Assembly: GCA_013815385.1 (NCBI GenBank)
Contig: JACDGL010000004.1
Span: forward strand, 62,001 to 126,000
Direction: 5' to 3'
DNA: 64,000 nucleotides
Origin: Taibaiella sp.
GTDB taxonomy: Bacteria > Bacteroidota > Bacteroidia > Chitinophagales > Chitinophagaceae
Numbering within the stretch: position 1 is the stretch's first letter; each line of letters begins with the position of its first letter. This document shows positions 10,149 to 62,390 of this stretch, in pieces. Below the pieces are notes generated by a model, which was not told the origin of the DNA, searched no databases, and saw only the letters and a list, made by a program, of their open reading frames with translations. Position numbers and translations under genes: made by a program.

Positions 10149-10861
10149 ATTTTAAACAAAAAATTAACAAATAGGCTTGAAAGTACTAAAAATAGTAATT
10201 CTGAGCAAATTTTAAGAATATATCCGTTGTGTAATAGTTGGCTATATATTTATATGTAAGGAACTTACACTAGAAGAGATATTATAAATGGGGTGTAGCT
10301 CTAAATATTAAGATCAAAGGTAAATCAGTAAGATTTTGAATATTTGTAAATAAGTGCGGAAAAGACTTTTTAGCGTTGCTTTTATACCCAAGTTTGGGGG
10401 ATGCTGCCGAAAAATGTTGCAATTCTTTACCTTTTTGTGGATAGCATACGCCGGATGCATTGACTGTGGCTTTTATTAACTTTTAAAATATGGTAATTCA
10501 TTGCCGAAAAAGGTTAATTCTCCGCCGTTTTACTTCCATTTCAGGTTAATTTTACTTCTATCAGGGTTAATTTTTCCGTCTTGATTAACCTTTTTCGGAA
10601 TGCAGTGTGTGGCATAAACGCCTACTTTCCCAACCCGGTAACAAATAATATTTCAAAGAACTGCAACCCAATATCCCGGTTCACATGTAAGATACTATTA
10701 GGGGGAATTCTGTGCAAATCTGATATTTATGGTACTACAGTTATAAGGTATGATACAGCAGTTATAGGGGTATGATGTCGAATTGTTATACCTCTAAATG
10801 CAGGCACCTTATTAACATTACATCAACATTGGAGGTAGTAACTTTACAAAAACGTGGGGAT
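10149..10861. other. Gene-poor 0.7-kb intergenic stretch with repeats
   Basis: No convincing gene is seen. The stretch contains the promoter region of the Ig-repeat gene at its left end, an inverted/tandem repeat element at 10498-10602, a diverged partial copy of that element's arm at about 10406-10430 (TGCCGAAAAATGTTGC), and two similar copies of cagttata-gg-tatgat near 10738 and 10761. The open frames that cross it (for example 10581-10775) have no family match and poor codon character. Confidence 0.6.
10498..10602. repeat. Inverted repeat enclosing a 21-22 bp tandem repeat
   Basis: The arm CCGAAAAAGGTTAAT (10504-10518) is exactly inverted at 10584-10598 (ATTAACCTTTTTCGG). The match extends outward by CATT/AATG with one extra G on the left arm. 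Between the arms are two copies of a 21-22 bp unit (10528-10549 and 10550-10570, TTTTACTTC...TCAGG-TTAA), giving three direct GGTTAATT motifs and one inverted. The total is about 105 bp. No target-site duplication was seen. It could be a repetitive extragenic element, a MITE-like remnant or a binding site array. Confidence 0.6.
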
Positions 10862-37926: not shown

Positions 37927-37956
37927 TTGCTATATAGTTTTTTATAAGTATTTTTG
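37927..37956 (+). promoter_or_regulatory. Promoter of the first HYC_CC_PP gene
   Basis: TTG (37927-37929), 19 bases, TATTTTTG (37949-37956): both elements and spacing match the Bacteroidota primary promoter. The start would be near 37963, 5 bases before the ATG at 37968. Confidence 0.7.
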
Positions 37957-40025: not shown

Positions 40026-41744
40026 ATGACAAATATTTTCAGGCTTGCTGTATTTGTGTCATTCATATCGATAAATAGTTTCGCCCAAAATGTTTTGAAC
40101 ATACCCCCAGCGCTTACGGGTACCAGCTTTAATTTAAACATACAAAGCGGTTCACAAGTCTTTTATACAGGCACTACCACCCCTACCTATGGCATTAATG
40201 GGCCCTGGATGTCGCCCACCATTATAGTAAATAGGGGCGATAGTGTAACCCTGAATGTAATAAACCACCTTCCGGTAAAAACTACCATGCATTGGCATGG
40301 GCTACATGTAGCCCCACAAAATGACGGGGGGCCTAACCAGATCATTAACCCGGGTACTACCTGGAGTCCTACATTCAAAATAAGAAATAATGCCAGCACC
40401 TATTGGTACCATCCTCATGGAGCAGGACAAACAGACCCGCAGGTATCTAAAGGACTAGCAGGCATTCTGATAGTACATGACAGCGCTGAACTAGCATTAA
40501 ATATTCCACACACTTATGGTATAGATGATGTACCACTGATAATACAAACCAAAGCATTTGATGTACTGCAGCAGATAGCTATTGCTACCGATATGGATAC
40601 AGCTATTTTCGTGAATGGTACATTAAATCCTTATTATAACACCCCAGCGCAAGTAATACGTTTCCGGCTATTGAACGGCAGCAGCATGCGTAGCTATGAT
40701 CTGGGACTATCAAATGGACAGATAATATACCAGATAGGCACTGATGGTGGCTTATTAGATACCCCAATTGCCCTAACGCGGTTATTATTATCTCCTGGTG
40801 AACGTGCAGAAATTCTCATTAACTTTTCTGCTATGACAGGACAAACTGTTTATCTTAAAAGTTTTGCTTCCGAATTGCCGACCGGTATATATGGGGCACA
40901 TACAATAGGAAGCGGTAGAGACACTATCCCCGAATACACCACTAACCTATTGAATGGCACTGATTTTAATTTGCTAAAGTTAAAAATAGTGGCAGCAACA
41001 TCAAGCCCTGTTACCAGTATCCCTCCTTACCTGGTTCCTCTAATCCCTTACCTACCTTCGGCAGCAACTAATACCAGGACCATTGTATTGGATACAATAC
41101 GCTTATTGCCAGGCGAGATACCTAACCGTGCTGAGGGGCCATTTGGAATGAATAATAGAAGTTTCGACATGGACACTATCAATGAAACAGTGTATCTGAA
41201 TACAACTGAAATATGGACAATTAAGAATAATACTTTAATAGCTCATCCCTTTCATATCCACAATGTGCAATTCAATATAATTGAAGAACATGGCATAGCC
41301 CTACCCGCAAAGAAAAGAGGATGGAAAGATGTACTACTGGTTATGCCAATGGATAGTATAAAGTTTTTGACAAGGTTTGAAACTTTTGCCAATCCGGCTA
41401 TTCCGTATATGTACCATTGTCATTTGCTCCATCATGAAGACGATGGTATGATGGGCCAATTTGTAGTTATGGACGGCAGTACTAGTACTCAGGAAATAAA
41501 TAATAAGCCGGATGACCTGATAATATATCCAAACCCTACCAGTGGGTTATTAAACATTCAAACAAAAAAAGTTCTGGCAAATAACAACATAATTAACATT
41601 TACAATACGACTGGTCAGCTTATTTATACAGCTAAATTGACAAATACTTGTACAGTAAATACGAGTGGATGGAATAAGGGCATATACAACGTGGTATACA
41701 TGGGTAGCGGCGAATGTAACCACAAAACATTTATTGTAGAGTAG
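40026..41744 (+). CDS. T9SS-secreted multicopper oxidase
   Basis: A 572-residue exported laccase/CueO-like enzyme: signal peptide (1-20), three cupredoxin domains, and all four copper-ligand motifs: HWHGLH (89-94), WYHPHG (127-132), HPFHIH (about 405-410) and HCHLLHHEDDGMM (about 463-475, the T1 Cys with an axial Met). It would oxidise Cu(I) or organic substrates with O2 and give water. The C-terminal 75 residues are a T9SS type A sorting domain (IYPNPTSGLLNIQ, then KGIYNVVYM), so it works outside the outer membrane, unlike periplasmic CueO. It is 27 bases before the His-rich lipoprotein gene. Confidence 0.93.
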   Translation: MTNIFRLAVFVSFISINSFAQNVLNIPPALTGTSFNLNIQSGSQVFYTGTTTPTYGINGPWMSPTIIVNRGDSVTLNVINHLPVKTTMHWHGLHVAPQNDGGPNQIINPGTTWSPTFKIRNNASTYWYHPHGAGQTDPQVSKGLAGILIVHDSAELALNIPHTYGIDDVPLIIQTKAFDVLQQIAIATDMDTAIFVNGTLNPYYNTPAQVIRFRLLNGSSMRSYDLGLSNGQIIYQIGTDGGLLDTPIALTRLLLSPGERAEILINFSAMTGQTVYLKSFASELPTGIYGAHTIGSGRDTIPEYTTNLLNGTDFNLLKLKIVAATSSPVTSIPPYLVPLIPYLPSAATNTRTIVLDTIRLLPGEIPNRAEGPFGMNNRSFDMDTINETVYLNTTEIWTIKNNTLIAHPFHIHNVQFNIIEEHGIALPAKKRGWKDVLLVMPMDSIKFLTRFETFANPAIPYMYHCHLLHHEDDGMMGQFVVMDGSTSTQEINNKPDDLIIYPNPTSGLLNIQTKKVLANNNIINIYNTTGQLIYTAKLTNTCTVNTSGWNKGIYNVVYMGSGECNHKTFIVE

Positions 41745-41771
41745 GCATAGTTATAATTAAAAACACAAACC

Positions 41772-42275
41772 ATGAAAAGCAACCTAACATTATTTATTGC
41801 GTTTGTACTCCTGATATCCTGCAATAAAAAGGATACAACAACCAATAATGGCACAGCGACGGTATTGCTTGCAACGCAAGATTCAGTTGCTGCAGTAAAT
41901 ATGCAACAGGAAGAAATATCAATGAGCCAAATGCTGGACAGCATGTTGGGTACACCACATCATACACTACAGGTACACTGGGACAGTCTTTATCATTACC
42001 ACGATTCGCTGTTTTGGCACCACCACGATTTTTACCATCACCATACTGCTTCTGATGATGACCATCATCACGAGTGGATGCATGAGGATTCAACATCTTT
42101 CTACCATCATCATCATTACCATCATCATTATCCAGGCCATGAGATGGATTCCCTGATCATTATTACCGATCATCCCGGACATGATAATAGTGACCATCAT
42201 TTTCATGGCCACACCCTAACTGATCATCATATTGCAGACTCACTCTATGAGGTAGATGAACATCATCATCCATAA
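41772..42275 (+). CDS. Histidine-rich lipoprotein, predicted metal binder
   Basis: A 167-residue lipoprotein. The lipobox is LLISC (Cys17 lipidated). From residue 63 on it holds 34 histidines in about 105 residues, in runs such as FYHHHHYHHHY, interleaved with Asp/Glu. This composition fits Cu(II), Zn or Ni binding, on the membrane or cell surface. No other domain is seen. It lies between the multicopper oxidase and the AraC regulator in the same transcript unit. The His run codons are cat/cac mixed, so it is not a simple DNA microsatellite. It has no named family that I recognise. Confidence 0.8.
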   Translation: MKSNLTLFIAFVLLISCNKKDTTTNNGTATVLLATQDSVAAVNMQQEEISMSQMLDSMLGTPHHTLQVHWDSLYHYHDSLFWHHHDFYHHHTASDDDHHHEWMHEDSTSFYHHHHYHHHYPGHEMDSLIIITDHPGHDNSDHHFHGHTLTDHHIADSLYEVDEHHHP

Positions 42276-42289
42276 GGCTGATAATTATT

Positions 42290-42853
42290 ATGAAATTATT
42301 CATTAAAAATATGGTCTGTGACCGTTGCATAATGGTTGTAAGGTCTGAATTGGAAAAACTTGGTTTGCATCCGGGTACGGTAACATTAGGTGAAGCGGAG
42401 ATAACTGAAACAGAACTTTCGCCTAATAAAATTGAAGGAGTAAGCAGGGCGCTGACATTGCTCGGTTTTGAGATAATGGATGACCGCAAAAGCCGGATTA
42501 TAGAGAAAATTAAAAATATTATCATCCAGCTAGTGCATCATTCTATAAATGGAACTTTAAAGGTCAACTTATCTGACCATATAGCAGCTGAACTACATTA
42601 TGATTACAACTACTTAAGTACCCTGTTCTCAGAAGTAGAAGGCATCCCAATTGAAAAGTATCTTATTCGACAAAAGATAGAGAAAGCAAAAGAACTGCTG
42701 GTATACGACGAGCTGAATATATCTGAAATAGCATATAATCTTGGTTACAGCAGCGTATCGCACTTAAGCAGCCAATTTAAACAGGTAACCGGATTTACGC
42801 CTTCCCATTTTAAAAACATAAAGGAAAGGCGCAAACCACTGGATAAACTGTAA
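42290..42853 (+). CDS. AraC-type regulator with N-terminal HMA-like metal domain
   Basis: A 187-residue protein. Residues 1-75 look like a heavy-metal-associated (HMA) ferredoxin-like fold: KNMVCDRCIMVVRSEL with CxxC at 10 and 13, ending FEIMDD before a linker. Residues about 85-185 are an AraC DNA-binding domain with two helix-turn-helix units (LSTLFSEVEG; ISEIAYNLGYSSVSHLSSQF). I infer a one-component sensor in which Cu(I) binding to CxxC changes DNA binding. It lies 14 bases after the His-rich lipoprotein and 79 before copA; the operator-like repeats sit between it and copA. Not to be confused with the second AraC gene at 49570. Confidence 0.85.
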   Translation: MKLFIKNMVCDRCIMVVRSELEKLGLHPGTVTLGEAEITETELSPNKIEGVSRALTLLGFEIMDDRKSRIIEKIKNIIIQLVHHSINGTLKVNLSDHIAAELHYDYNYLSTLFSEVEGIPIEKYLIRQKIEKAKELLVYDELNISEIAYNLGYSSVSHLSSQFKQVTGFTPSHFKNIKERRKPLDKL

Positions 42854-42883
42854 ATTCTGTAAATCATTCAGGTAATTCTGTAA
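42853..42883 (+). promoter_or_regulatory. Direct-repeat operator candidate before copA
   Basis: AATTCTGTAA occurs twice, at 42853-42862 and 42874-42883, exactly 21 bp apart (two helical turns). A -7-like box GACCTTTG lies 21 bases further on (42905-42912), so the second half-site would overlap the -33 position. The layout is that of AraC-family activator sites. Confidence 0.6.
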
Positions 42884-42932
42884 CAACCGGCAGATAACCT
42901 TACAGACCTTTGCCTTATCAAAATGTATAGAT

Positions 42933-45356
42933 ATGGCAGCTACAAATAACACCTTCTACATACCGCTTGAGGGGGTTGAAAGTGAGCATTGTGCCCTTAT
43001 AGTAGACAAGGGATTAAGCAATATAAAAGGAATTTCAACACATAAAGTAGAGCTAAACAATAGACGGGCAGTTATAGAAACAAATGACGCATTGGCAATA
43101 GTACCGCTTACTGTAAAAACGATAAGGGACCTTGGATATGATGTAGATACTGTAACTAAAACATACCCGGTGCTGAACATGACCTGTGCGTCCTGTGCCG
43201 TTAGCAGCGAAAGCATGCTTAAAAACCAGCCAGGTGTACTATCGGCAAGTGTCAACTATGCAAATGCTACAGCCAAAATAGAATATGTACCTACCATAAC
43301 TGATGCTCATCAACTTAAAGCTTCTTTACAGTCTATAGGCTATGACCTGATGATTGATGAAACGGAAGATGCCAAAGAATCTCTGGAAGAACTACATGCG
43401 GAAAAGTTCCAAACGCTAAAGCGTAAAACCATGTGGGCAATTGCATTATCAATACCATTAGTAGTGATAGCAATGTTCTTTATGAATATTCCTTATGCTA
43501 ATTATATAATGTGGGGCCTGGCAACACCTGTATTGCTTGTATTGGGCAACCAGTTCTTTATAGGGGCCTGGCAACAGATTAAGCACAGGTCTGCAAATAT
43601 GGATACGCTTGTAGCACTCAGCACAGGGATTGCCTACCTATTTAGTGTATTCAATACGCTATTCCCAGCCTATTGGCATCGCAGAGGCTTACATGCGCAC
43701 GTGTACTTTGAAGCTGCTGCCGTTGTTATAACATTTATATTGTCAGGTAAGCTTCTTGAAGAAAAAGCGAAGGGTAATACCTCATCGGCTATAAAAAAAC
43801 TAATGGGGCTACAGCCTAAAACTGTAACTGTCATACATAATGGCGGCCACCAGATGGAAATGCCAATAGCCCAGGTAAAACCGGGGGATACCTTACTTAT
43901 GAAGCCCGGAGAAAAAATAGCAGTAGATGGCACTGTAAGCTACGGCAACTCTTTTGTTGACGAAAGTATGATAAGCGGTGAGCCTGTACCTATAGAGAAA
44001 AAAATACAGGATAAAGTGCTGGCCGGGACAATTAATCAAAAAGGCAGCTTTCAGTTCACCGCAGAAAAGGTGGGTGATGATACGCTGCTGGCACAAATCA
44101 TAAAAATGGTGCAGGATGCACAAGGCAGCAAAGCTCCCGTACAAAAGTTAGTAGATAAGATAGCAGGTATTTTTGTACCGATAGTTATCGGTATTGCCGT
44201 ATTAACGCTTTTTATATGGATACTCGCAGGTGGACATAATGGCTTTACCCAAGGACTATTAGCTATGGTAACTGTGCTGGTAATAGCCTGCCCCTGTGCT
44301 TTAGGGCTGGCTACGCCTACCGCAATTATGGTAGGTATAGGAAAAGGAGCGGAGCACGGAATACTAATAAAAGATGCACAAAGCCTGGAGCTTGCTAAAA
44401 AAATAAATGCTGTTGTATTAGATAAGACAGGAACTATTACTGAGGGAAAACCAATAGTAACAAATATATTATGGCTGAATGGTAACGAGGATAATGCATC
44501 TGTATTAGCTTCTATAGAAAAACAATCGGAGCACCCACTGGCTGAAGCGGTAGTGAAACATCTAAACATTTCCAATTATCTACCTGTACAAAACTTTGAA
44601 AGTATTACCGGCGCAGGTGCGAAGGCTGAAGTGAATAGCCGAACGTATTATGTAGGTACTACTAAACTACTGGGAGTGAATGATATAAAGGTAAGCGACT
44701 CCCTAATACAGGCCTCCCAAAAGTGGCTAAGCGAGGCTAAGACAGTGATCTATTTTAGCGACAGCATAGAGGCAATTGCAGTAATAGCTATTGCTGATAA
44801 AATAAAGGAATCATCTATTGCCGCAATTAAACAGCTACAGGGCGCAGGAATAGAAGTATATATGCTGACAGGTGATAACCAAGCTACTGCCAAAGCTATT
44901 GCAGCGCAGGCAGGCATCAGTGAATATAAAGCCGACGTATTACCTGCTGATAAAGCAACCTTTATAAAGACCTTGCAAAAGCAAGGCAAAATTGTTGCTA
45001 TGGTTGGTGATGGCATTAATGACAGTAACGCGCTGGCGCAGGCTGATGTAAGCATAGCCATGGGTAAGGGCAGTGACATAGCAATGGATGTAGCCCATAT
45101 GACCATTATCTCATCGGACCTTACAAGGATACCGGAGGCTATTAAGCTCTCTGGCTATACTGTTGCCGCTATCAGGCAAAATCTATTCTGGGCATTTATC
45201 TATAACCTAATTGGTATTCCCCTGGCAGCGGGAATTCTTTACCCAATAAATGGATTCCTGATCAATCCGATGATAGCCGGCGCCGCAATGGCGTTAAGCT
45301 CCGTAAGTGTTGTGAGCAATAGCCTGAGACTTAAATGGAAAAAGATCAGTGCCTGA
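42933..45356 (+). CDS. copA: Copper-translocating P1B-type ATPase
   Basis: An 807-residue inner-membrane pump that exports Cu(I) from the cytoplasm using ATP. It has two N-terminal HMA domains: the second is intact (MTCASCAV, CxxC at 85 and 88), the first is degenerate (VESEHCALIV, only one Cys). Then come the P1B motifs: ISGEP (about 347), membrane motif CPC at 453-455 (IACPCALGLATPTA), DKTGT at 497-501, SEHPLAEAV (the HP motif, 534-535), GDGIND at 692-697, and YN plus MALSSVSVVSNS in the last helices, which mark Cu(I) selectivity. It is the core gene of the island and has its own promoter region with a direct repeat. Confidence 0.97.
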   Translation: MAATNNTFYIPLEGVESEHCALIVDKGLSNIKGISTHKVELNNRRAVIETNDALAIVPLTVKTIRDLGYDVDTVTKTYPVLNMTCASCAVSSESMLKNQPGVLSASVNYANATAKIEYVPTITDAHQLKASLQSIGYDLMIDETEDAKESLEELHAEKFQTLKRKTMWAIALSIPLVVIAMFFMNIPYANYIMWGLATPVLLVLGNQFFIGAWQQIKHRSANMDTLVALSTGIAYLFSVFNTLFPAYWHRRGLHAHVYFEAAAVVITFILSGKLLEEKAKGNTSSAIKKLMGLQPKTVTVIHNGGHQMEMPIAQVKPGDTLLMKPGEKIAVDGTVSYGNSFVDESMISGEPVPIEKKIQDKVLAGTINQKGSFQFTAEKVGDDTLLAQIIKMVQDAQGSKAPVQKLVDKIAGIFVPIVIGIAVLTLFIWILAGGHNGFTQGLLAMVTVLVIACPCALGLATPTAIMVGIGKGAEHGILIKDAQSLELAKKINAVVLDKTGTITEGKPIVTNILWLNGNEDNASVLASIEKQSEHPLAEAVVKHLNISNYLPVQNFESITGAGAKAEVNSRTYYVGTTKLLGVNDIKVSDSLIQASQKWLSEAKTVIYFSDSIEAIAVIAIADKIKESSIAAIKQLQGAGIEVYMLTGDNQATAKAIAAQAGISEYKADVLPADKATFIKTLQKQGKIVAMVGDGINDSNALAQADVSIAMGKGSDIAMDVAHMTIISSDLTRIPEAIKLSGYTVAAIRQNLFWAFIYNLIGIPLAAGILYPINGFLINPMIAGAAMALSSVSVVSNSLRLKWKKISA

Positions 45357-45365
45357 TGCCCTGAA

Positions 45366-45396
45366 AATTATGAAAACAATACAGGGAATCCTGTAA
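45366..45396 (+). promoter_or_regulatory. Related operator candidate before the CopZ-like gene
   Basis: AATCCTGTAA (45387-45396) matches the copA half-site in 9 of 10 bases, and AATTATGAAA (45366-45375), exactly 21 bp before it, matches in 8 of 10. GAACTTTG (45419-45426) follows 22 bases on, close to the copA spacing of 21. Confidence 0.5.
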
Positions 45397-45450
45397 CAAC
45401 TAATAGAAGGATCTCAGTGAACTTTGTAATTCAATATAAAACATCCCGAA

Positions 45451-45666
45451 ATGAACACTTTAAAATTTAAGACAAATATTAATTGCGCAGGTTGCGAAAC
45501 CAAAGTAACCCCAGCCCTTGACAATACGGTGGGAGCAAGTAACTGGCAGGTAAACACACAAACAACTGACAAAATATTGACCATTGTTTCAGATAAGATG
45601 GGGGCTGATGATGTAATTGAAGTACTACAGAAAGCGGGATTTAAAGCCGAACAATTAAACAACTAA
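45451..45666 (+). CDS. copZ: CopZ-like cytoplasmic HMA copper chaperone
   Basis: A 71-residue single HMA domain with no signal peptide. The metal motif is NCAGCETKV (CxxC at about 13 and 16). Such chaperones carry Cu(I) to the CopA pump or to the copper sensor. Its own operator-like site upstream links it to copA. A very short ORF (45669-45725) begins 2 bases after its stop. Confidence 0.9.
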   Translation: MNTLKFKTNINCAGCETKVTPALDNTVGASNWQVNTQTTDKILTIVSDKMGADDVIEVLQKAGFKAEQLNN

Positions 45667-45789: not shown

Positions 45790-46191
45790 ATGAAGCGTTT
45801 CCTAGTATCCATATTAGCTATCCTTTACCTCGCAACTGCGTCAGGCGCTACAGTGCACCTGCACTATTGCATGGATAAGTTGATAGGTGTGAGCCTTGGT
45901 GAGAACGGGGAAGAAAACCATCAATGCAATAAATGCGGTATGACAAAAAAGTCAAACGGCGGATGTTGCAAGGATATTTACAAAGTAGTAAAAACTGATC
46001 TGGCACAGCAAGCTGCCAAGGTTATATTGCAGTCTTCACAAATAGCTGCTGTTGGCCCTAACCCAACAGGATATAATTTCAATACAATACTGTTTGCCCA
46101 AAATGGCAGTGTGTTGCCTTTAAGCAATGCGCCACCCAGTGTCTGGCAAAGCTGTCCCATATATATCCGGGTAGGAAATTTCCGTATTTAG
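45790..46191 (+). CDS. HYC_CC_PP family exported protein (copy 2)
   Basis: A 133-residue paralogue of the protein at 37968. It has the N-terminal hydrophobic segment (4-21), HLHYCMDK (HYC at 25-27), a Cys-rich loop (CNKCG at 46-49 and GGCCKD, CC at 59-60), and NAPPS (PP at about 114-115). Compared with copy 1 the loop has a CxxC in place of a Lys-rich stretch. Its place between the CopZ-like and the exported HMA genes supports a copper-related role. A strong hairpin follows (46205-46249). Confidence 0.82.
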   Translation: MKRFLVSILAILYLATASGATVHLHYCMDKLIGVSLGENGEENHQCNKCGMTKKSNGGCCKDIYKVVKTDLAQQAAKVILQSSQIAAVGPNPTGYNFNTILFAQNGSVLPLSNAPPSVWQSCPIYIRVGNFRI

Positions 46192-61463: not shown

Positions 61464-62390
61464 ATGAACTTAAAAGAATATTTTTATGGGAAGAATTTCT
61501 CCCAGATGAATATGCTCAGCTTACCTGCATGGATCAGGCCACATCTTTTCAGAAATAAAAAATTTGATGACCTGACACCGGCTGAACTTGACGAACTTAA
61601 AGAAAGGATCAGCCACTTTAAAGAAGAGCAACCAGAAGTATCTGTGGTAATACCTGCCTGGAACGAAGAGAATAATATATACAGGGCATTATCTTCCATA
61701 TCAGCCAATAAAACAAAATATAAAGTTGAAATAGTAGTTATAAACAATAACTCAACTGACCGTACACAAGAGGTACTGGATACAATTGGCGTACGGAATT
61801 ACCTGCAACCTATACAAGGCACACCGCATGCACGCCAGTTAGGACTTGAAAAGGCCCGTGGCAAATATCACCTATGTGCTGATTCAGATACTTTTTATCC
61901 TCCTACATGGATAGATACCATGGTAGCACCGATGAAGAATGATGAAACAATAAAAGGGGTGTATGGCAGGTATTCTTTTATACCCCCCGAAGGGCAGGGA
62001 AGATTTGGATTATGGTTTTATGAAAAGATATCGGGCATTCTTATTCGCATACGTAAGCGCAAACGGGAATTTATGAATTTCCTGGGGTTTAATATGGGCT
62101 TTGTTACCGAAACCGGACGTACAACAGGAGGGTTTAAGGTAAGCCAGGTACGTAAGTTTGATAATGCAGCAGGAAGTGAGTATTTTGTAGATGAGGCTGA
62201 GGATGGCACTATGGCAGTAAACCTGCAAAAAAAAGGCAGGCTAAAGTTAGTAACAAACAATGGGGCGCGTGTTTTTACATCGCCGCGCCGGCTAATGTAT
62301 GATGGAGGGATATGGAAAGCTTTTAAGAACCGAATTAAAGGCCAGGGATCTTTTCTTCCTGAATATATTTCGGGCAAATCAAAAAAATAA
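61464..62390 (+). CDS. GT2 family glycosyltransferase
   Basis: A 308-residue GT-A enzyme. The N-terminal 55 residues are an extra segment with Lys/Phe-rich sequence. The catalytic core begins VSVVIPAWNEENNIYRAL, with VINNNSTDRT, and HLCADSDTF (metal motif DSD), ending with an FVDEAEDGTMAV segment (acid-rich acceptor site). It is probably cytoplasmic or membrane-peripheral; no helix is clear. It heads a same-strand run of three GT2 genes. The sugar is unknown. Confidence 0.82.
   Translation: MNLKEYFYGKNFSQMNMLSLPAWIRPHLFRNKKFDDLTPAELDELKERISHFKEEQPEVSVVIPAWNEENNIYRALSSISANKTKYKVEIVVINNNSTDRTQEVLDTIGVRNYLQPIQGTPHARQLGLEKARGKYHLCADSDTFYPPTWIDTMVAPMKNDETIKGVYGRYSFIPPEGQGRFGLWFYEKISGILIRIRKRKREFMNFLGFNMGFVTETGRTTGGFKVSQVRKFDNAAGSEYFVDEAEDGTMAVNLQKKGRLKLVTNNGARVFTSPRRLMYDGGIWKAFKNRIKGQGSFLPEYISGKSKK

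Follow-up and report, generated by a model that had tools for sequence, protein, structure and literature searches.

A Conserved Tandem Operator before copA and a CopZ-Like Gene in Taibaiella sp. Is Probably a Copper Switch

The copper export gene copA and a small CopZ-like gene of Taibaiella sp. are each preceded by a two-part site whose half-sites stand in direct orientation, 21 bp apart. We examined this element in a 64,000-nucleotide stretch of DNA, referred to here as the window (positions 62,001 to 126,000 of contig JACDGL010000004.1; coordinates below are counted from the first base of the window). As the shared site recurs in relatives beside the gene for an HMA-AraC regulator, it probably serves these bacteria as their copper switch. 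Our reading of the sequence, to which we give a probability of roughly 0.7, is that the HMA-AraC protein encoded at 42290 to 42853 reads both half-sites and, at high Cu(I), switches on copA and the CopZ-like gene.

Repeats before copA and the CopZ-like gene

The copA operator is a 40-bp element at 42848 to 42887 that overlaps the 3' end of the regulator gene by 6 bases; it is on the forward strand, as are the regulator gene and the other features described in this section. A preliminary description of this DNA had reported two exact copies of one 10-mer in this region, and AATTCTGTAA was indeed present at 42853 to 42862 and, 21 bp further on, at 42874 to 42883. A weaker copy of the operator (45361 to 45400) precedes the CopZ-like gene. 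Its half-sites, AATTATGAAA (45366 to 45375) and AATCCTGTAA (45387 to 45396), are again 21 bp apart and share 8/10 and 9/10 bases, respectively, with the copA half-site, as had been described. A GAnCTTTG box resembling a -7 element had been placed 21 to 22 bases after the second repeat; it was found after 21 bases before copA (GACCTTTG, 42905 to 42912) and after 22 bases before the CopZ-like gene (GAACTTTG, 45419 to 45426). The copA gene (42933 to 45356) encodes a copper-translocating P-type ATPase of 807 amino acids (TIGR01511, 603 bits; cutoff, 397). The product of the CopZ-like gene (45451 to 45666) is a small HMA protein of 71 amino acids with a match to PF00403 (HMA) of 23.6 bits, slightly below the cutoff of 24.8.

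The layout had been judged to be beyond chance, and resampling of both intergenic regions agreed with this. When the copA intergenic region was resampled with a first-order Markov model, an exact 10-bp repeat was present at offset 21 in 2 of 4,000 cases and at any offset from 11 to 40 in 17 of 4,000. The 17/20 matches observed at offset 21 before the CopZ-like gene were reached in none of 20,000 resamples of that region. Throughout the window, an exact 10-mer was repeated at offset 21 in two places, at 42853 and, unrelated to it, at 10544. Copies of AATTCTGTAA with no more than one mismatch numbered 18, versus 8 expected; lone half-sites are thus frequent and carry little meaning, and it is the paired layout that counts.

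Motif learned from relatives

A search of the genome collection confirmed 299 encoded relatives of the HMA-AraC protein, and the 80 best loci were retained. An HMA-AraC match at an E value of ≤0.001 was present in 37 of 39 related genomes, many of the weaker matches covering the AraC domain only. The regulator set comprised 109 proteins, including the window protein and two paralogues from its own genome, and 63 of these were distinct at <85% identity. For the analysis of self-matches, the flank of each regulator gene was taken as 142 bases, comprising the last 12 of the gene and the 130 that follow. Self-matches of at least 8/10 in a 10-base frame were detected at offset 21 in 27 of the 63 flanks, while each remaining offset between 11 and 60 yielded 0 to 7.

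A motif finder that was blind to repeats was then applied to the 62 flanks other than that of the window, among them those of the two own-genome paralogues, and converged on a 40-base element with a log-likelihood of 792. Five shuffled sets, run with 12 restarts versus 60 for the real set, gave log-likelihoods of 165 to 178. Scores of at least 14 for this element were obtained in 40 of the 63 flanks, the window's among them, and the next flank scored 0.7. The consensus from 35 of these flank sites was nTGTAAATnnTATAAATCATTTCCAAAATTGTGTAACA. Self-similarity of the motif profile reached an r value of 0.72 at offset 21 and at most 0.27 at any other direct offset between 4 and 29, and the best inverted alignment had an r value of 0.47. 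These results indicated that the half-sites of the operator are directly repeated at a distance of about two helical turns, with offset 21 standing out. Direct half-sites at about this distance are typical of the AraC family; the sites of AraC at araI1-I2 and of XylS at Pm are tandem half-sites with a 21-bp spacing.

Both strands of the window were scanned with the motif learned without it. The copA site ranked first, with a score of 36.7, and the CopZ-like site ranked second, with 24.9; the third match scored 10.3, and the largest score among 20 resampled windows was 16.5. For a search of the 3.25-Mb genome, the profile drew on 35 of the 39 nonwindow sites, one of which (C39:182126) was from the same genome. 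Among the 150 of 2,387 first-look candidates that were scored, the copA site was the best match (E value, 9.1 × 10^-6) and the CopZ-like site was fourth (E value, 0.0137). Matches 2, 3, and 5 surround a paralogous HMA-AraC gene on contig C39, match 3 being the training site.

Co-occurrence with the regulator and conservation before copA

The distribution of the motif was compared with that of the regulator, scored as present at an E value of ≤1 × 10^-20, in 79 genomes of the order, among which loci of the named relatives may recur. Of the 43 genomes with the regulator, 24 had a motif match at an E value of ≤0.01, as did 1 of the 36 that lack it (P = 1.3 × 10^-7); this exception was G068, a genome that is 87% complete. 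When nine training-linked genomes were left out, the proportions were 18 of 34 and 1 of 36. At an E value of ≤0.1, the motif was present in 37 of 43 genomes with the regulator versus 11 of 36 without it.

Conservation in orthologous copA promoters was the subject of a test set in advance, with the element counted at a score of at least 15 within 700 bp upstream. It was present before 33 of 37 regulator-linked copA genes, a count that includes the window copA and draws mostly on loci that also trained the motif, and before none of 16 control genes; the expectation that the repeat is conserved was thereby upheld. In six of the regulator-linked loci (L007, L008, L011, L016, L026, and L034), the site lies outside the trained stretch. 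The controls were copA-like genes from regulator-less genomes, with a best score of 11.3, and only two of them had >50% identity to the window copA. Many relatives keep this regulator gene immediately 5' of copA. The 140 bases at the regulator-copA junction are identical in L040, L042, L044, L053, L062, and L068, which belong to Sediminibacterium, Sphingobacterium, Chryseobacterium, and Kaistella; this identity across genera suggests that the cassette has recently moved by horizontal transfer.

Promoter layout and downstream genes

A total of 139 distinct sites with a score of at least 15 were collected from the fetched loci. These include training sites and clusters fetched for known sites, and the counts of target genes given here are no census because the choice of sites was partly preselected. 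A TTTG, TTTA, or TTCG sequence started 25 or 26 bases behind repeat 2 in 125 of the 139 sites, and each other index from 5 to 36 was occupied in 0 to 4 sites. The -7-like box before copA is a TTTG-type box at this conserved position. Promoters of Bacteroidota carry a -33 box and a TAnnTTTG -7 box, and a distance of 25 or 26 bases would put half-site 2 over the -33 region, an arrangement like that of class II activation.

P-type ATPase genes follow 50 of the 139 sites. CopZ-like genes lie behind 23 sites, the window's included, and 21 of these 23 start 45 to 71 bases after the site; other HMA proteins are encoded behind 6 sites. A Pfam scan of 50 downstream proteins (49 of the 67 classed as "other" plus one HMA protein) detected DUF3347 in 7.

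The HMA-AraC protein

The regulator gene (42290 to 42853) is an open reading frame (ORF) for 187 amino acids, with an N-terminal HMA-like domain carrying a CxxC motif and a C-terminal AraC-type DNA-binding domain (HTH_18; E value, 1.2 × 10^-18). The AraC-type helix-turn-helix exceeded the curated cutoffs of PF12833 (67.6 bits; cutoff, 33.6) and PF00165 (50.8 bits; cutoff, 26.6). The AraC_binding sensor domain (PF02311) was absent among the Pfam matches at an E value of ≤0.001, and no listed NCBIfam match reached its cutoff. An AlphaFold2 model built from 34 sequences had a mean predicted local distance difference test score of 88.7, and the top Protein Data Bank structure matches of the model were of the AraC type. 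The modeled N terminus has strands at residues 2 to 6, 28 to 32, 35 to 38, and 61 to 63 and helices at 11 to 23 and 45 to 57, which is the beta-alpha-beta-beta-alpha-beta order of the ferredoxin-like HMA fold. The CxxC motif (Cys10 and Cys13) is located at the start of helix 1; Cys13 is invariant among the 34 homologues, and Cys10 is present in at least 90% of them.

Copper-dependent control of copA and copZ is the role of CueR, CsoR, and CopY. At an E value of ≤0.001, the CueR and CsoR profiles had no match in the Taibaiella genome, and a CopY profile gave one match, on contig C32, below the cutoff. Matches above the curated cutoffs in the 39 related genomes numbered 0 for CueR, 2 for CsoR, and 0 for CopY.

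Paralogues and the SxxC branch

Seventy-four distinct homologues of at least 150 amino acids were compared, with gene linkage assessed within the fetched flanks (about 1.5 kb for the related-genome loci). A CxxC motif was present in 62 of them and an SxxC motif in 12. Location near copA or HMA genes was observed for 47 of the 62 CxxC homologues and for none of the 12 SxxC homologues (P = 7.9 × 10^-7). In a tree of the family, the bootstrap of which was not fully settled, a 16-row clade with support of 100/99 contained both own-genome paralogues and 11 of the 12 SxxC proteins, and the window protein fell outside it. The 11 SxxC proteins formed an inner group (99/86), and the twelfth (L106) was a long branch elsewhere in the tree.

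Sites at loci of the 16-row clade precede BON-domain, CsbD-like, fatty-acid-desaturase, and Ice_binding genes, for which curated cutoffs were met, as well as cupin-like genes, slightly below the Cupin_2 cutoff. They retain the tandem layout, with several columns altered: GTGTGAAT in 41 clade sites, versus nTGTAAAT in 50 copper-gene sites. At operator column 4, A was found in 44 of the 50 copper-gene sites and G in 32 of the 41 clade sites.

The two own-genome paralogues are located on contigs C39 (L117, 7734 to 9165) and C32 (L119, 6957 to 7551); one has a CxxC motif and the other an SxxC motif. Behind each there is a similar tandem site and then a cupin-like gene. At the C39 locus there are further, opposite-facing sites, one of them before a Big_5/Ice_binding gene. 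In another genome (G065, C18, 1 to 40000; L169/L170), 15 sites with scores of at least 15 are spread over 40 kb around an SxxC HMA-AraC gene, preceding BON-domain, cupin-like, secreted, and other genes; this cluster looks like a clustered regulon of a noncopper branch. A copA-linked HMA-AraC gene in G013 (L092, contig C37) has a YxxC motif and an in-frame stop, leaving 101 amino acids, which is below the length limit of the 74-homologue set; this is probably a decayed copy.

Proposed mechanism and alternatives

Half-sites repeated directly at 21 bp, an AraC-type DNA-binding domain in the neighboring protein, and the tendency of motif and regulator to occur in the same genomes together supported the earlier suggestion of an AraC-type operator, with the HMA-AraC protein as the candidate regulator. 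In the mechanism that we propose, two AraC-type DNA-binding domains would sit head to tail on half-sites of the form (A)AATnnTGTAA, and the spacing of 21 bp, or two helical turns, would place both on the same face of the double helix. With the TTTG of the -7-like box 25 or 26 bases further on, the downstream domain would occupy the -33 region in a class II-like arrangement. Binding of Cu(I) at the N-terminal CxxC motif would switch the protein, such that RNA polymerase is recruited to copA and copper is exported, and the weaker operator copy would extend the same switch to the CopZ-like gene.

Several observations weigh against control of copA by this protein in response to copper. No site was found within 170 bp behind the gene in 23 of the 63 regulator flanks, and 6 of the 43 regulator genomes had no motif match even at an E value of ≤0.1, a threshold at which 11 of the 36 regulator-less genomes did have one. 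The genes behind 60 of the 139 sites encode neither a P-type ATPase nor an HMA protein, and the same genome has two more HMA-AraC paralogues with similar sites. As regards the sensor domain, Pfam HMA (PF00403) was not called in the regulator at an E value of ≤0.001, only AraC-type DNA-binding domains being reported, and the fold match of the N terminus was weak (CsoZ chaperone, 6ff1; rank 46; E value, 0.35).

The same protein could act on the same site as a repressor that leaves the DNA or changes shape upon binding Cu(I). Half-site 2 is placed where it could block RNA polymerase at -33, and repression is the mode of action of cytosolic copper sensors such as CsoR and CopY. However, the strictly fixed distance to the -7-like box and a tandem layout upstream of it are more typical of AraC-family activators, and we consider repression unlikely.

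It is less probable still that the operator is read mainly by another family member, either the C39 or C32 paralogue or a different AraC protein, and that the adjacent gene is not the copA regulator. The presence of three HMA-AraC genes in the genome, with similar operators behind all three, would permit this, but both paralogues fall in the well-supported clade found beside noncopper genes, from which the window protein is separate. Moreover, the copper-gene sites differ from the clade sites at several columns, and it is this regulator that directly precedes copA in many relatives.

Inverted repeats can also be read in the window (CTGTAA...TTACAG before copA and ACAGG....CCTGT before the CopZ-like gene), and with the subthreshold CopY match on C32 they might suggest a site of the CopY/BlaI or response-regulator type; TGTAAC might likewise be taken for an alternative sigma factor promoter box. 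Such readings are very improbable: these inverted repeats are confined to the window and absent from the 35-site consensus of relatives, the direct self-similarity of the motif exceeds the best inverted one, the motif tracks the AraC gene across genomes, and the doubled 21-bp layout together with the link to an AraC gene disfavors a sigma factor box. A functionless chance resemblance, for which the frequency of lone half-sites in this DNA might speak, is contradicted by conservation before copA and in regulator flanks, by the resampling, and by the window and genome ranks obtained with an outside motif, and its likelihood is negligible.

Relation to known systems

Activation of copA by the HMA-AraC protein would resemble regulation by AraC/XylS-family activators in the type of DNA-binding domain and in the direct half-sites, 21 bp apart, upstream of the promoter. 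Unlike these activators, the window protein is 187 amino acids long, with an HMA-like CxxC N terminus instead of the sugar-type AraC_binding domain, and its predicted targets are copper genes. It presumably shares with CueR, CsoR, and CopY the task of copper-dependent copA and copZ control, whereas its DNA-binding fold and operator are different. The predicted N-terminal fold, with CxxC at the start of helix 1, is like that of the HMA metallochaperones CopZ and CsoZ (the match to CsoZ being weak), but here the HMA-like domain is fused to an AraC DNA-binding domain.

No paper on an HMA-AraC copper regulator was found by title or by the start of the abstract in one open-access library under the terms searched. 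A 2024 study of copper handling in the flavobacterium Bizionia argentinensis describes MerR- and CopY-like proteins that lack the known copper-binding sites and lists two ArsR-family proteins as possible cytosolic regulators; "AraC" does not occur in that paper (PMC11213822).

A broader interpretation, for which we see about even odds, is that HMA-AraC proteins are a principal sensor of cytosolic copper in Bacteroidota that has so far gone undescribed and that they act on copA and copZ through a single, widely shared tandem operator with 21-bp spacing. A branch arising within the family would have changed its targets, then lost the first cysteine of the metal site (CxxC to SxxC), and would now run many-promoter regulons, which include BON-domain, CsbD-like, cupin-like, and fatty-acid-desaturase genes, via a slightly altered operator. 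HMA-AraC offers a specific candidate for cytosolic copper sensing in Bacteroidota, with a defined operator, and the 40-bp profile can be used to predict copper regulons in other members of the phylum. The cysteine-losing branch would clearly illustrate how a metal sensor can be put to new use with its operator layout kept.

Other observations at the locus

Some further sites were considered and rejected. Autoregulation through the same site was not indicated, as nothing before the regulator gene in the window scored above 10.3, and an HMA-AraC gene was the assigned downstream ORF in only 2 of the 139 sites. Additional targets within the copper cluster of the window were also discounted, the remaining matches (≤10.3) being within the range of resampled windows; a window match at 37933 overlaps a start codon. 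Two weak pattern matches elsewhere in the genome, C23:284666 and C28:90893, had no motif match, only scores of <6 being found at these loci.

Directly 5' of the regulator gene, in the region from 40026 to 42275, a multicopper-oxidase-like protein with a type IX secretion system tail domain is encoded, and a small, very histidine-rich protein without an NCBIfam match is encoded at 41772 to 42275. The tight spacing of these genes to the regulator gene suggests a single transcription unit that includes the regulator. Downstream, a HYC_CC_PP family protein is encoded at 45790 to 46191, between the CopZ-like gene and the genes for two more HMA-match proteins (46297 and 46668).

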